Positions 11,810-18,583 of a DNA stretch of 35,142 nt are shown here, one piece after another (position 1 is the first letter of the stretch; each line of letters begins with the position of its first letter). A program made the translations under genes and the position numbers. The DNA comes from Candidatus Terraquivivens tikiterensis (GTDB lineage Archaea; Thermoproteota; Nitrososphaeria_A; Caldarchaeales; Wolframiiraptoraceae): positions 1 through 35,142 of the forward strand of contig NDWU01000019.1 of NCBI GenBank assembly GCA_003056285.1. Direction: 5' to 3'. Below the pieces are notes generated by a model that made no database searches, was not told the origin of the DNA, and saw only the letters and a program-made list of their open reading frames with translations.

Positions 11810-12994
11810 TCACGATGTTGGATGGGTAGTCCAAACGAATAGCTCGTCTCCATGATAGGAGAGAAGCATACAACCTATGACTAGCTTTTTAGGTATCGTC
11901 TCAACCTTTGAGTACAACTTGATCGTGCTTCTTTTGTTATCCACTTCGCCTACCAACCCTATACCCAAGCACCGCTCTTCGGCATCGAACAGGTAGGACA
12001 GGATGCCAACCCTATTTTTTGAAAGCGACCCTGCGTTCAAGGGCGGTAGCGTTGTGTTCTGCAGGTTGTAAGCCTCTATTAGGGATTGCATATGCTTTAG
12101 CGGGTTGCCCTCTACGTTGAATGCTTCCATAGGGATTGTTGAAAGCCTAAGCCATGAGATGGGTATTGTCTTTATCGTACCATCCTTTAAGTACCTCCTG
12201 AAGGAGCTTTCCCTTAGCCTCCTACGTGCCTCCTGATCCCGCTTGTACACGTATTCTGGTTTGCTTACAACAACATGCTCTATACCCGCATCCTTACAGT
12301 AGGTTTCAACCTTATGCTGGGCACTCCCTAGGAATATCACGAGCGAGGGTTTAACGACGTTAAGAAGGTTCAGCTTATGCTCTTCCGCATCCTTGCCCTC
12401 TATCCAGCCGTCGCAGTCAACGACGACATAACCCTCATCCTTAATGGCGTAGCCTAAAAGCTCGCCAGCTCTCTTGAGATGGTACTCTTTCGCGAAGGAT
12501 GGTGACGTGAAACCGACTGGGGCTATGAGCTCCGCCTTGAGCTGGTAAAGGTCGGGAATGGGCTTTGTCGTCCAAACAAGCCCCACCGTGGTGGAGGGGC
12601 ATATGTTTGATTGGCCTAAGTCTAAATCCACCAAGCAGGCTTTTTTTCCCTCGTTCACCAGCGAGTTTATGATAAAGGTGGTTAAGGACGTCTTCCCCGA
12701 ATCTGTCCCGCCCATAACGACGATCTTCTTATGATTCCTGACCGTCTGCGTAACCAAAGCCTTCCAGTCATCCGGTATAGTGTCCCGGTCCACGACCTCG
12801 ACAGATGAGCCCTCCCCAAGGCTTACCTCAACCTCCATGCCGACCTCTGTGAATATCGGCAGAGCCCTTGAGTCCCTCACGAAAAGAGGTTTTTTCTGCG
12901 TTAGGGCGTACCCAAATACCTTTCCAGAACCCGATACCAACTTAACGGAGGCAGGGCCTTTAATGAGGAGGGTCTTGCCAGCTCCTACGTTCAT
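11810..12994 (-). CDS. Clp1/Grc3-family polynucleotide 5'-hydroxyl kinase
   Basis: These kinases phosphorylate 5'-OH RNA (and DNA) ends and act in RNA processing. The 394-residue protein has an N-terminal beta domain (about 1-75), then a Walker A motif GGTDSGKTS at 95-103. It is followed by the family-specific DLDLGQSNICPSTTVGL motif and a VVVDCDGWIEG Walker B-like strand, with a C-terminal beta domain of the Clp1 type. An ATG at 13009 exists, but the ATG at 12994 follows a GGTGAGG site by a few nt and is preferred. The upstream RuvC-like gene ends at 13002, so the two are almost certainly co-transcribed. Confidence 0.88.
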   Translation of the reverse strand: MNVGAGKTLLIKGPASVKLVSGSGKVFGYALTQKKPLFVRDSRALPIFTEVGMEVEVSLGEGSSVEVVDRDTIPDDWKALVTQTVRNHKKIVVMGGTDSGKTSLTTFIINSLVNEGKKACLVDLDLGQSNICPSTTVGLVWTTKPIPDLYQLKAELIAPVGFTSPSFAKEYHLKRAGELLGYAIKDEGYVVVDCDGWIEGKDAEEHKLNLLNVVKPSLVIFLGSAQHKVETYCKDAGIEHVVVSKPEYVYKRDQEARRRLRESSFRRYLKDGTIKTIPISWLRLSTIPMEAFNVEGNPLKHMQSLIEAYNLQNTTLPPLNAGSLSKNRVGILSYLFDAEERCLGIGLVGEVDNKRSTIKLYSKVETIPKKLVIGCMLLSYHGDELFVWTTHPTS

Positions 12995-13001
12995 GGTATC
13001 C

Positions 13002-13658
13002 TCACCCATCAGACAGCATCAATTTTCCTCTGGCTTTGATGAATAGCATGAGGGCCGCATTTTCGTCAGAGGAGCGCGCATGGATAAAAACATTCTTCTG
13101 GTTCGAGCTATCTTCCGATACTGTCATTATCTCAACCTGACCCAACCCCAGAAACCTTTCATATATGCTACCCTTTAGAGTGTAAAAGAAGTCCCCTGGA
13201 CCTTCTCCGATTATTATATATTTCCTGCACTCTTGGTGTGCCCTAAAGAAGTCGTCAACATCGTCCAGGAGGGCGCGTACATTCGAGTAGATCGAGGTCC
13301 TAAGCAGTATGTCTTCGGCGAAGAAGGCGCATCCAATCCTTTTCTCACCAGGATCTATGGAGACCGTTACGAACCTTACGCTGTCCTTCCCGAAAGCCAC
13401 CTCGTACGCCCTGTCGATGATGGCTTTGTAGGAGGGTGCATCCTCGACGAACAGGGCAGGTATGGGAAGCTTAGGAGCGAGTTTCCTAGTCGTTATGATC
13501 ACCTTTGTGCTGAGGGGCAAGTCTGAAGGGCTACTAACAGAAAGCACCTCAACACCACGCCTCCTGGCCTCGGATGCTATAGCATAGGCCACCCTAAGGT
13601 CAGGCAATAGGAGGCCAATGGTCACCTTGTATTTATTAGGGTTCCTTTTCTTTTTCAA
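13002..13658 (-). CDS. Uncharacterised RuvC/RNase H-like fold protein
   Basis: The N-terminal 90 residues look like a small alpha/beta domain. From about residue 95 the pattern is that of a RuvC/YqgF RNase H-like nuclease. VTVSIDPGEKRIGCAFF has Asp102 in a D-P-G motif, IIIGEGPGDFF has Glu152, and the C-terminal SSDENAALMLFIKA has acidic 198/199 followed by a helix. All three expected acidic positions are present, so catalytic activity is plausible; this is inference from motifs. The start is a TTG at 13658, with an ACTAAATA box about 28 nt before it; a GTG at 13625 is an alternative. It is the first gene of a pair with the Clp1-type kinase. I do not recognise a named family. Confidence 0.7.
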   Translation of the reverse strand: MKKKRNPNKYKVTIGLLLPDLRVAYAIASEARRRGVEVLSVSSPSDLPLSTKVIITTRKLAPKLPIPALFVEDAPSYKAIIDRAYEVAFGKDSVRFVTVSIDPGEKRIGCAFFAEDILLRTSIYSNVRALLDDVDDFFRAHQECRKYIIIGEGPGDFFYTLKGSIYERFLGLGQVEIMTVSEDSSNQKNVFIHARSSDENAALMLFIKARGKLMLSDG

Positions 13659-15136: not shown

Positions 15137-18100
15137 TTGTACAGGATACCGGCTGAGTTTGCCGAATACTATGCCAGGATATTGGATAGGGTCAAGGAAG
15201 AGTATAGGATAGCCTCCGAGGCAAGGAAAAGGTTAGGGATGGTCGTCGATGAGGTTGAGACGATAATAGCGGAGGACATGGCAAAAAGGGTCGAACTACT
15301 CGTCGGTCCTCAAGGCATCGCCGAGAAGATAAGGTTTCTAAAAGATAAACTCTCAAGAGAACGCCTGGCGTTCAAGCTCGCAGAAGACATCATATACAGT
15401 TCGATAGGAAAGTTGAAAGAGGAGGCTGCCATCAAGCAAGCACTATGTACTGCGCTTGCCGTTATGACGCCGCCGTGCATAACAGCTGCACCGAGCGAGG
15501 GCATCGCGGACGTAAAGATCAAAAAGAACTTTGACGGAACAAGCTACTTGGCCGTTTACTTTGCCGGCCCAATAAGGGCGGCTGGCGGAACGGAGTTAAC
15601 GGCGACCGTCATCTTAGCGGACTACATCAGAAGGTTACTGAACTTAGATAGGTACAAGCCTACAGAAGAAGAGATTAGACGTTTCAAGGAAGAGCTTAGG
15701 ACCTATGTACGGATGGTTAGCAGGTTCCAGTACAATGTCCCAGACCATCTAATAGAAAAAGCGTTGAGAAACATACCAGTGGAGGTTACGGGAATCCCCA
15801 CGGATAATATCTTGGCACCTTCTTACAGGAATCTGCCGAGGGTTGAGACGAACTACCTGAGGGGCGGTGCCCTTAGGGTCGTGAACGACGGCATAGTCGG
15901 AAGGGCGAGAAAGGCGCTTAAGCTCGTAGAGATGCTTGGCCTACCCGGTTGGGAATGGTTGCACGAGGTTGCAGAGGAGTTCAGCAAGATCCACTCGGCA
16001 ATATCGGCCGAGGAAAGCTACCTGAACGAGGTCATAGGCGGTAGGCCCGTGTTCTCTTTACCGGATGCGTTCGGCGGATTTAGGTTGAGGTACGGCCGCT
16101 CGTACAACACCGGTATGGCCGCCGTCGGCGTACATCCCATGACGATGAGGGTTCTTGATGGGTACATCGCGACCGGTACGCAACTAAAGCTCGACTATCC
16201 TGGAAAGGGTGGCGTTGCCATGCCTGTCGATACGATAGAACCCCCTAGGGTGCTGTTAGACGATGGTTCCGTCGTCAAAGTCGACAACGATTTAACCTAC
16301 AAGGAGGTAAAAGATAAAATAGTAAAAATCCTTTTCCTTGGCGACCTACTGGTCTCTTTTGGGGATTGCATAGAAAACAACGTTGAGCTCAGGCAGGTTG
16401 GATATTGTGAGGAGTGGTGGGCGCAAGAGCTTAAGAATGAGGCTGTGAGGCTGGGTGGTGTTGAAAAGGTCGCGAGGATGCTGGGGATACCAACCGAGCG
16501 CCTTATGCTACTGACGGAGAGGCCGCTCGACGTCAAACCAACAGACAGAGAGGCTTTAAGGTTGAGCCTCAGGCTTGGGATCCCACTCCATCCCTCTTAC
16601 TGCTGGTTTTGGGAAAACATCGACATGGATGGGCTGGAAACGCTAAGAGATTGGTTGAATGGATCAAAAGCTCGCTGCAAACCCTACAACGGAAAGGTCA
16701 GGCTGCCGTTCACCGATAGTGTACATGATATATTGGTGAAGATAGTGCTCGAGCACAGGGTTGATGATGGATGCGTGGTTATCGACGTTTCAACTTATAG
16801 GGTACTCTTGGCACTATTAGCACAGCCGAAGAACGTATCGGGTCCAGTTAGCGATACTTTGGAGGGAATATCCGTGATTTCGGGAATAACCCTGAGAAGA
16901 AAAGGCGGAACGTTCTTGGGCGCGAGGATGGGAAGGCCGGAAAAGGCAGGGGTAAGGGTCATGGAACCGCCAGTCCACGTGCTGTTCCCGGTAGGCCTTA
17001 AAGGGGGTGCGTCGAGGGACATAGCAAGCATCGTCAAGTCTGGGGAGAAGGTTTTCGTGGAAGCAGCCAGGCTGGAATGCCCAAAGTGCGGCTCCATAGG
17101 CTGGAGAACGGTTTGTGAAAGTTGCGGTACGAAAAGGAAACCGTTAGGGATATGCTCAAAATGCTCGACGAAGTACTATGACGTCTTGGTCCAAAACTGC
17201 GAAAGGTGCGGGGGCAAGGTCTCATACACGGAGAAATTCTCGCTGGATGTTAGGGCAGAGTTTATGCAAGAATGCGAGCGCCTCTCCCTTAGGATGCCAC
17301 CGAAGATCAAGGGCGTTCGCGCGCTCATGAGCAGGATCAAGGTTCCGGAGGACGTGGCGAAAGGGCTTCTTAGAGCACAGTATGACCTATACGTTTACAA
17401 AGATGGGACGATTAGGTTTGACGTGACGAACGCGCCGCTTACCCATTTCACGCCCCGCCAGATTTCGACGGATATCAACACTCTAAGAGGCTTGGGTTAT
17501 ACTTATGATATCGAGGGGAAACCGTTGACGAGCATCGACCAGGTCTGCGAGCTTAGGCCTCAGGATCTGATAATACCTAGGAAGGCTGCCGAGCACCTTC
17601 TCAAGGTATCCAAGTTCATCGACGACGTCCTAGAGAAGCTCGCTGGGATGCAGCCATACTACGAGTGTAATAAGCCGGAAGACCTGATAGGCAAGCTGGT
17701 CGCATCGCTTTCACCGCACACGTACGTGGCAGTAATAGGGAGGATAATCGGTTTCACGGACGCAGACGTGTGCTTCGCGCACCCCCTCTTCCACGCATCC
17801 AAAAGGCGCGACTGCGATGGCGATGAGGATAGCCTAATGCTTCCGCTAGATGTTTTCATCAATTTCTCTAGACTGTACTTGCCCGACAGAATCGGTGGAA
17901 AAATGGACTCACCCTTGCTGATAACACCGATAGTCTATCCAGAAGAGGTTGACGAGCAGGCCCACAACCTAGACGTTGCCTACGCCTACCCGCTGGAGCT
18001 GTACGAGTCAGCAAGGAATGGGGAACCGTCGATCAAGCTATCGAACCTTATCGCCACCATAAAGCTGAAACTTGGCTCTGCTGAACAATACGGCGCCTTT

Positions 18101-18583
18101 GGGTTTACGCATGGAACGCACCAGCTCGTCGTCGACGTGAGCTCCGCATACAAGCAGAGCAAGTCGATGTTCGAGAAGGTCATAGAGCAGATAAAGCTAA
18201 CAGAAAAGTTATCCTCCGTAAAAATAGAGAAGGTAGTTGAGAGCATCGTTTCGTCGCATATCCTTCCTGACGTTGCTGGAAACACAAAGGCATTCTTCGT
18301 TCAAAGTTTCAGGTGCAAAAAGTGTAATGCTAAGTTCAGGCGTCTTCCCTTGAGCGGCCTATGCAGTAAATGCGGTTCTAATCTGATGCAAACTGTTTTC
18401 CGCGGCACGATCGAGAAGTATGTTGAGTTGTTGGGAAAAACGCTGTCCAAGTACATAACAACCCCGTATCTTAAAGAAAGGGTAAGCATAGTAATAGAAA
18501 ACGTTCAGAGCACTTTTATCCAACAAGAAGAGGCCTCATCGGCTGTAAAGCAGGTTTCTCTAGAAAGCTTCATCGAAAGCTAG
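15137..18583 (+). CDS. polC: DNA polymerase D large subunit (DP2)
   Basis: DP2 is the catalytic subunit of the archaeal replicative polymerase PolD. The 1148-residue protein begins MYRIPAEFAEYYARILD. It shows the GPIRAAGGTELT and RVVNDGIVGRARKAL blocks and the catalytic RRDCDGDEDSLMLP motif (Asp894 and Asp896). Zinc-binding Cys clusters lie at about 648-700 and about 1060-1080. No intein interrupts the active-site region, a common insertion point in this gene. The last ten residues, QVSLESFIES, match a PCNA-interacting PIP box. The small subunit DP1 is not in the window. The start is a TTG with a TATA-like box 30 nt before it. PolD is absent from Crenarchaeota, which helps place the organism. 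Confidence 0.96.
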   Translation: MYRIPAEFAEYYARILDRVKEEYRIASEARKRLGMVVDEVETIIAEDMAKRVELLVGPQGIAEKIRFLKDKLSRERLAFKLAEDIIYSSIGKLKEEAAIKQALCTALAVMTPPCITAAPSEGIADVKIKKNFDGTSYLAVYFAGPIRAAGGTELTATVILADYIRRLLNLDRYKPTEEEIRRFKEELRTYVRMVSRFQYNVPDHLIEKALRNIPVEVTGIPTDNILAPSYRNLPRVETNYLRGGALRVVNDGIVGRARKALKLVEMLGLPGWEWLHEVAEEFSKIHSAISAEESYLNEVIGGRPVFSLPDAFGGFRLRYGRSYNTGMAAVGVHPMTMRVLDGYIATGTQLKLDYPGKGGVAMPVDTIEPPRVLLDDGSVVKVDNDLTYKEVKDKIVKILFLGDLLVSFGDCIENNVELRQVGYCEEWWAQELKNEAVRLGGVEKVARMLGIPTERLMLLTERPLDVKPTDREALRLSLRLGIPLHPSYCWFWENIDMDGLETLRDWLNGSKARCKPYNGKVRLPFTDSVHDILVKIVLEHRVDDGCVVIDVSTYRVLLALLAQPKNVSGPVSDTLEGISVISGITLRRKGGTFLGARMGRPEKAGVRVMEPPVHVLFPVGLKGGASRDIASIVKSGEKVFVEAARLECPKCGSIGWRTVCESCGTKRKPLGICSKCSTKYYDVLVQNCERCGGKVSYTEKFSLDVRAEFMQECERLSLRMPPKIKGVRALMSRIKVPEDVAKGLLRAQYDLYVYKDGTIRFDVTNAPLTHFTPRQISTDINTLRGLGYTYDIEGKPLTSIDQVCELRPQDLIIPRKAAEHLLKVSKFIDDVLEKLAGMQPYYECNKPEDLIGKLVASLSPHTYVAVIGRIIGFTDADVCFAHPLFHASKRRDCDGDEDSLMLPLDVFINFSRLYLPDRIGGKMDSPLLITPIVYPEEVDEQAHNLDVAYAYPLELYESARNGEPSIKLSNLIATIKLKLGSAEQYGAFGFTHGTHQLVVDVSSAYKQSKSMFEKVIEQIKLTEKLSSVKIEKVVESIVSSHILPDVAGNTKAFFVQSFRCKKCNAKFRRLPLSGLCSKCGSNLMQTVFRGTIEKYVELLGKTLSKYITTPYLKERVSIVIENVQSTFIQQEEASSAVKQVSLESFIES

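Follow-up and report, generated by a model that had tools for sequence, protein, structure and literature searches.

The YqgF/RuvX proteins are RNase H-fold nucleases whose active site is arranged differently from that of RuvC. The strand-4 Glu of RuvC is absent from YqgF; strand 5 of YqgF ends in a Glu instead, and its last helix bears one acid (PMC9601230, PMC3985635). The junction-binding helices of RuvC are missing as well (PMC9601230). DrYqgF is a 5'-3' exo- and endoribonuclease that cuts RNA, shows no junction activity and loses its RNase activity in the E106A and D122A variants; Holliday-junction activity was reported for the YqgF proteins of M. tuberculosis and H. pylori, and E. coli YqgF acts at the 5' end of pre-16S rRNA (PMC9601230). 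It was also proposed that the YqgF geometry may be unfavourable, and Tex, a large multi-domain protein with a YqgF-like domain (PF16921), lacks the third carboxylate (PMC3985635).

Clp1-family polynucleotide kinases form the second background to this locus. Archaeal Clp1 phosphorylates both RNA and DNA with a preference for RNA, and in archaea without Clp1 the ligation of pre-tRNA exons is thought to proceed through RtcB (PMC6777427). No assigned partner of archaeal Clp1 was found in the literature searched. In eukaryotes, kinases of this family are partnered with nucleases, as in Las1-Grc3-Rat1 and TSEN-CLP1. Las1 is a metal-independent HEPN nuclease and, like TSEN, has no relation to the RNase H fold; both leave 5'-OH ends, whereas two-metal RNase H-fold nucleases normally leave a 5'-phosphate and a 3'-OH. 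In yeast, Grc3 phosphorylates the 5'-OH product of Las1, which is then handed to the 5'-3' exonuclease Rat1 (PMC10942766).

The window analysed here, a stretch of 35,142 nt from Candidatus Terraquivivens tikiterensis, encodes a 218-aa protein immediately upstream of a Clp1-family kinase (Table 1). The earlier note had taken this frame for a gene, and the reading holds: the TTG start is common to all six genus members (6/6), and the frame is not a chance ORF, because it is conserved and single-copy in the class and conserved across the phylum. A profile search detected the family, as a single copy, in every one of the 38 genomes of its class (Caldarchaeales), and the window genome likewise has one copy, so that the gene is single-copy in the genomes surveyed closely. 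With the single sequence as query, 38 of the 41 genomes searched, which include that of the window, gave a match; the relatives named through the DNA scan belong to Caldarchaeales (Wolframiiraptor, Geocrenenecus, Caldarchaeum and 'Aigarchaeota'). In the wider survey, which covered the phylum Thermoproteota and uses its own family labels f1-f50, a narrow profile (A1) placed the family in at least 128 of 250 genomes. A wider profile (A4) gave matches in 185 of 250, the weakest of them uncertain, and two or more matches in some genomes, DUF460 proteins probably among them.

Annotation searches returned little for the individual sequence. No Pfam or NCBIfam model passed with the window protein, the protein alone matched nothing in the PDB and Pfam, and the first contig scan with it gave no match; the early family alignment was too divergent for patterns to be read from it. 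Profile matches to de novo designed proteins were put down to composition effects. As the window protein matches no Pfam or NCBIfam entry, the family is likely labelled hypothetical in most genomes.

Table 1. Positions of the gene pair, predicted domains and acidic residues in the window, with an example of the RadB-like neighbour from another locus
Feature	Position	Strand or orientation	Basis
YqgF/Tex-type RNase H-fold protein, 218 aa	13002..13658	(-)	TTG start at 13658, stop 13002-13004
Predicted alpha/beta domain at the N terminus, residues about 13-92	13383..13622	(-)	AlphaFold
RNase H-fold domain, residues 96-217 (predicted)	13008..13373	(-)	AlphaFold, Foldseek
D102 of the DPG motif (strand-1 end), predicted first catalytic acid	13353..13355	(-)	D in 69/69
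E152, earlier proposed second acid	13203..13205	(-)	Glu in 6/69
E182 (strand-5 end), second of the conserved acids	13113..13115	(-)	67 E + 2 D of 69
D198 (first turn-in of the last helix), third of the conserved acids	13065..13067	(-)	66/69
Clp1-family polynucleotide 5'-OH kinase	11810..12994	(-)	CLP1_P domain (PF16575), 118.5 bits vs cut-off 26.6, E 4e-34
RadB-like recombinase, example	L077:4621-5334; 24 other loci in L078-L114	head-to-head	TIGR02237

The structure of the protein was predicted with AlphaFold2 from a 17-sequence alignment (mean pLDDT 84.4, pTM 0.81). In the model the C-terminal domain has the topology b1-b2-b3-a-b4-a-b5-a, the canonical RNase H order, with strands at 96-103, 108-114 and 117-124, a helix at 127-140, a strand at 145-151, a helix at 156-172, a strand at 175-180 and a last helix at 197-217. 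Foldseek searches against the PDB gave RNase H-like proteins. The compact whole-fold matches included RuvX (7ess) and the YqgF of D. radiodurans (7w89), both with probability 1.00 and TMt (TM by target) 0.55; Tex (2oce) was matched with probability 1.00 inside a larger protein, and the IS621 recombinase was also among the matches within larger proteins. The prediction and fold search thus show an RNase H fold in the modelled protein, as the earlier note had anticipated, and the outcome that it named as refuting its reading, a predicted structure lacking this fold, did not occur. The extra N-terminal alpha/beta domain that it had described is also seen in the model, in the order strand-helix-strand-strand-strand-helix; no residue of this domain is invariant across the family, and when folded alone it gave just weak receiver-like or BRCT-like structural matches (E 0.025 or worse). 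A minimal Argonaute-like MID-PIWI arrangement was considered, since MIWI heads the full-length Foldseek list and Aa-Ago spans both domains, but these matches have a TM of about 0.3 and an rmsd above 14, and with the results for the isolated N-terminal domain they leave that reading unsupported.

Conservation was read from 69 non-redundant family members drawn from across the phylum. Only eight columns carry one residue in at least 85% of them, namely D102, P103, G104, G109, G151, E182, D198 and A202, and this set minus P103 pairs with D9, G11, G16, G60, E96, D122 and A126 of YqgF (E. coli numbering). D102, E182 and D198 align to D9, E96 and D122, an arrangement of acids like that of YqgF. Of the acids named previously, D102 in the DPG motif and D198 at the opening of the last helix are kept; E199, next to the latter, is conserved in 34 of 69 members and is not kept outside the order. 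E152, formerly read as the second acid, is probably not catalytic, because Glu occurs in so few members (Table 1); S, A, N, D or K stands there in the others, directly after the invariant G151. A RuvC-type site built on E152 is ruled out by this conservation, and E182 takes that role. The site is therefore of the YqgF/Tex type and not of the RuvC type, since strand 4 carries no conserved acid and its place is taken by a Glu on strand 5; the RuvC/YqgF-like RNase H fold assigned earlier is supported, with this refinement. Deviations are few: the third acid is His in L078 and L109 and Asn in L093 (possibly by an alignment shift), and E182 is replaced by Asp in L109 and L115. In the genus of the window organism an extra residue follows DPG (window 13344-13346), giving DPGEKR where the other aligned members have DPGKR.

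Based on profile comparisons, the family can be placed among known proteins. With hhalign the family alignment matched DUF460 best (E 3.9e-10, prob 96.7), followed by a set of 11 bacterial YqgF proteins (E 4.7e-9, prob 96), and the negative controls RadB and Clp1 gave prob about 1. When 47 members were scanned singly against Pfam, DUF460 was found in 32 (best 4e-5), Tex_YqgF in 7 (1e-4) and RuvX in 6 (1e-5), three leading families that belong to one and the same branch. Sequence profiles and the model together support placing the family, which is archaeal and has no name yet, in the YqgF/Tex/DUF460 branch of the RNase H-like superfamily.

The family shares with YqgF/RuvX (PF03652, COG0816) the RNase H fold, the strand-1 Asp, the lack of a strand-4 acid, the Glu ending strand 5, one Asp in the last helix, and the matching conserved glycines and Ala. 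It differs from these bacterial nucleases in being archaeal, in the added N-terminal domain and in sharing an operon with Clp1. Of the DER[LFW]-[ST]T and GxP motifs, the Glu and often the following T/S are present, whereas neither Arg nor Pro is conserved. It was not filed in PF03652, because the window protein lacks these two residues and gives no match at the RuvX gathering score; the G012 orthologue exceeds that cut-off (30.6 vs 29.2 bits). With Tex it has in common the strand-5 carboxylate arrangement, and with RuvC (PF02075) the RNase H fold, the strand-1 Asp and an acid within the last helix. DUF460 (PF04312, COG2433) is likewise archaeal and shares the G[IV]DPG motif and, on its last helix, RD...A, but its frames are about 370-740 aa with further regions, and it has a strand-4 Asp (ATDV) where the family has G-x. 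Membership in DUF460 was rejected: family members reach about 24 bits against a cut-off of 28, the strand-4 Asp is absent, and 35 of 250 phylum genomes encode both. DUF460 is thus a separate protein, given these 35 genomes and its detection in 0 of 41 relatives. Across Thermoproteota, where DUF460 is above the cut-off in 126 of 250 genomes, the two are anti-correlated (35 genomes with both, 93 with the family only, 91 with DUF460 only and 31 with neither), a distribution obtained with the narrow profile and without correction for phylogeny.

The kinase gene follows closely. Its conserved ATG at 12994 lies 7 nt past the nuclease stop on the same strand; another in-frame ATG exists upstream at 13009. 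A Walker A motif (GGTDSGKT) and a lid-type RxxxxR are present, and the clasp reads CDGW, the motif given in the literature being [T/S/L]xGW (PMC6777427). The spacing is close in relatives too. In the best 30 loci of the order Clp1 is directly downstream, and 35 of 55 loci have it as the next co-directional gene. From genome positions, an adjacent same-strand pair occurs in at least 60 genomes and in at least 18 of 28 families, counts that are not independent of phylogeny; at least four further genomes have Clp1 on the same strand no more than about 2 kb away, and at least two have it adjoining the nuclease gene in the opposite orientation. The close linkage noted in this window is therefore recurrent and real in many families, yet it is not obligatory: in f2 (of the window's order), f8, f21, f26, f34 and f44 Clp1, where found, sits elsewhere, and none of the Clp1 matches listed belongs to f7, whose 30 genomes retain the nuclease; many f7 genomes are also named among those without a Clp1 match. 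A conserved YqgF-type protein beside Clp1 in many Thermoproteota families offers a concrete, testable partner for the kinase.

The other neighbours are more varied. In the window's order, Elf1 and GGGP synthase (PcrB) lie on the divergent side and GINS51 and PriS on the convergent side. In 25 of the 39 phylum-survey loci (L077-L115), all outside the window's order, a RadB-like recombinase gene stands head-to-head at -1, mostly followed by CarS, an arrangement that recurs in many lineages of Thermoproteota. All 25 match TIGR02237, and since the proteins checked singly score under the RadB equivalog cut-off, they may constitute a distinct RadB-type subfamily; RadB is a recombination mediator that crenarchaea were stated to lack (PMC5480776). 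An XPD-type helicase is convergent at +1/+2 on the opposite strand in L078, L086, L097, L098, L102, L105 and L112, and that of L078 has the domains DEAD_2, HBB and Helicase_C_2. No paper was found in a literature search for RadB and Clp1 combined in archaea.

With the three acids in the YqgF arrangement and the predicted fold, the protein is likely to be a nuclease, and we infer that it is a divalent-metal enzyme that processes the ends of RNA, or of nucleic acid containing RNA; RNA is somewhat more likely as the substrate than DNA. Counted against RNA, the RadB-like, PriS, GINS and XPD-type helicase neighbours point equally to DNA. The reading we favour, held tentatively and at a little under even probability, is that this metal-dependent nuclease of the YqgF/Tex/DUF460 branch and Clp1 serve one RNA end-processing pathway in which the kinase acts first. 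Clp1 would phosphorylate 5'-OH ends, for example those from the tRNA-splicing endonuclease, and the YqgF-like enzyme would then trim or degrade the 5'-phosphorylated RNA, in the way that Rat1 follows Grc3. Binding of a partner or substrate would fall to the N-terminal domain, and in genomes missing Clp1 the nuclease could act on ends that already bear a 5'-phosphate. Such a kinase-first order is plausible but unproven, with a precedent in Grc3 and Rat1. That many TACK archaea possess a dedicated 5'-end processing module, made of two enzymes, a Clp1 kinase that converts 5'-OH into 5'-phosphate ends and a YqgF-like nuclease that bears a targeting domain and trims those ends afterwards, is a bolder and rather unlikely proposition. 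If true, it would be an archaeal counterpart of Grc3 and Rat1 assembled from unrelated nuclease parts, and would give an unnamed, widespread archaeal family its first function.

The main rival is a role in DNA recombination or repair, in which the YqgF-like enzyme would cut branched or damaged DNA together with RadB or RadA, and Clp1 would mend 5'-OH DNA ends. This is unlikely, though the frequent RadB-like neighbour, the junction activity of the two bacterial YqgF proteins and the DNA phosphorylation by archaeal Clp1 all speak for it. A head-to-head arrangement is, however, weaker evidence than a common operon, and there is no RadB link in the window's order. DrYqgF cuts RNA without acting on junctions; YqgF lacks the junction-binding helices of RuvC, and in the model none is predicted between strand 5 and the last helix. 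All 41 relatives tested have Hjc, the archaeal resolvase, which the protein therefore need not replace, and its candidacy as a substitute Holliday-junction resolvase was rejected.

It is quite unlikely that the protein is an inactive YqgF-derived nucleic-acid-binding or scaffold protein, resembling the YqgF-like domain of Tex and perhaps regulating Clp1. The possibly unfavourable geometry, the Tex precedent, the presence of just three carboxylates and the altered acids in a few members are compatible with it, but at least 96% of the 69 diverse members keep all three acids while almost nothing else is conserved, and DrYqgF is an active RNase with the same three acids.

In the f7 loci L082-L084 the nuclease gene adjoins NAC-like and PUA-domain genes, neighbours that suggest a translation or RNA context. 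These loci, the 30 f7 genomes that keep the nuclease without a listed Clp1, and the action of E. coli YqgF on pre-16S rRNA would fit a general housekeeping RNase, used for instance in 5' trimming of pre-rRNA, a task proposed for E. coli YqgF, with a linkage to Clp1 that is inherited gene order of no functional significance; we regard this as improbable, as the pair is kept in at least 18 families while the other flanks vary (L072, L088, L099, L107). The opposite order, in which the nuclease cuts and Clp1 then phosphorylates the new 5' end, had been suggested from this locus and would accord with the tight co-directional linkage and with the sequence of events in Las1-Grc3, but it is chemically doubtful and holds little probability, because the products of a two-metal RNase H-fold nuclease would already carry the 5'-phosphate and leave a 5'-OH kinase idle, so that the kinase-first order fits better.

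Elsewhere in the window, downstream of Elf1 and PcrB, a 1148-aa ORF (15137-18583) resembles, as judged by eye, the archaeal DNA polymerase D large subunit.
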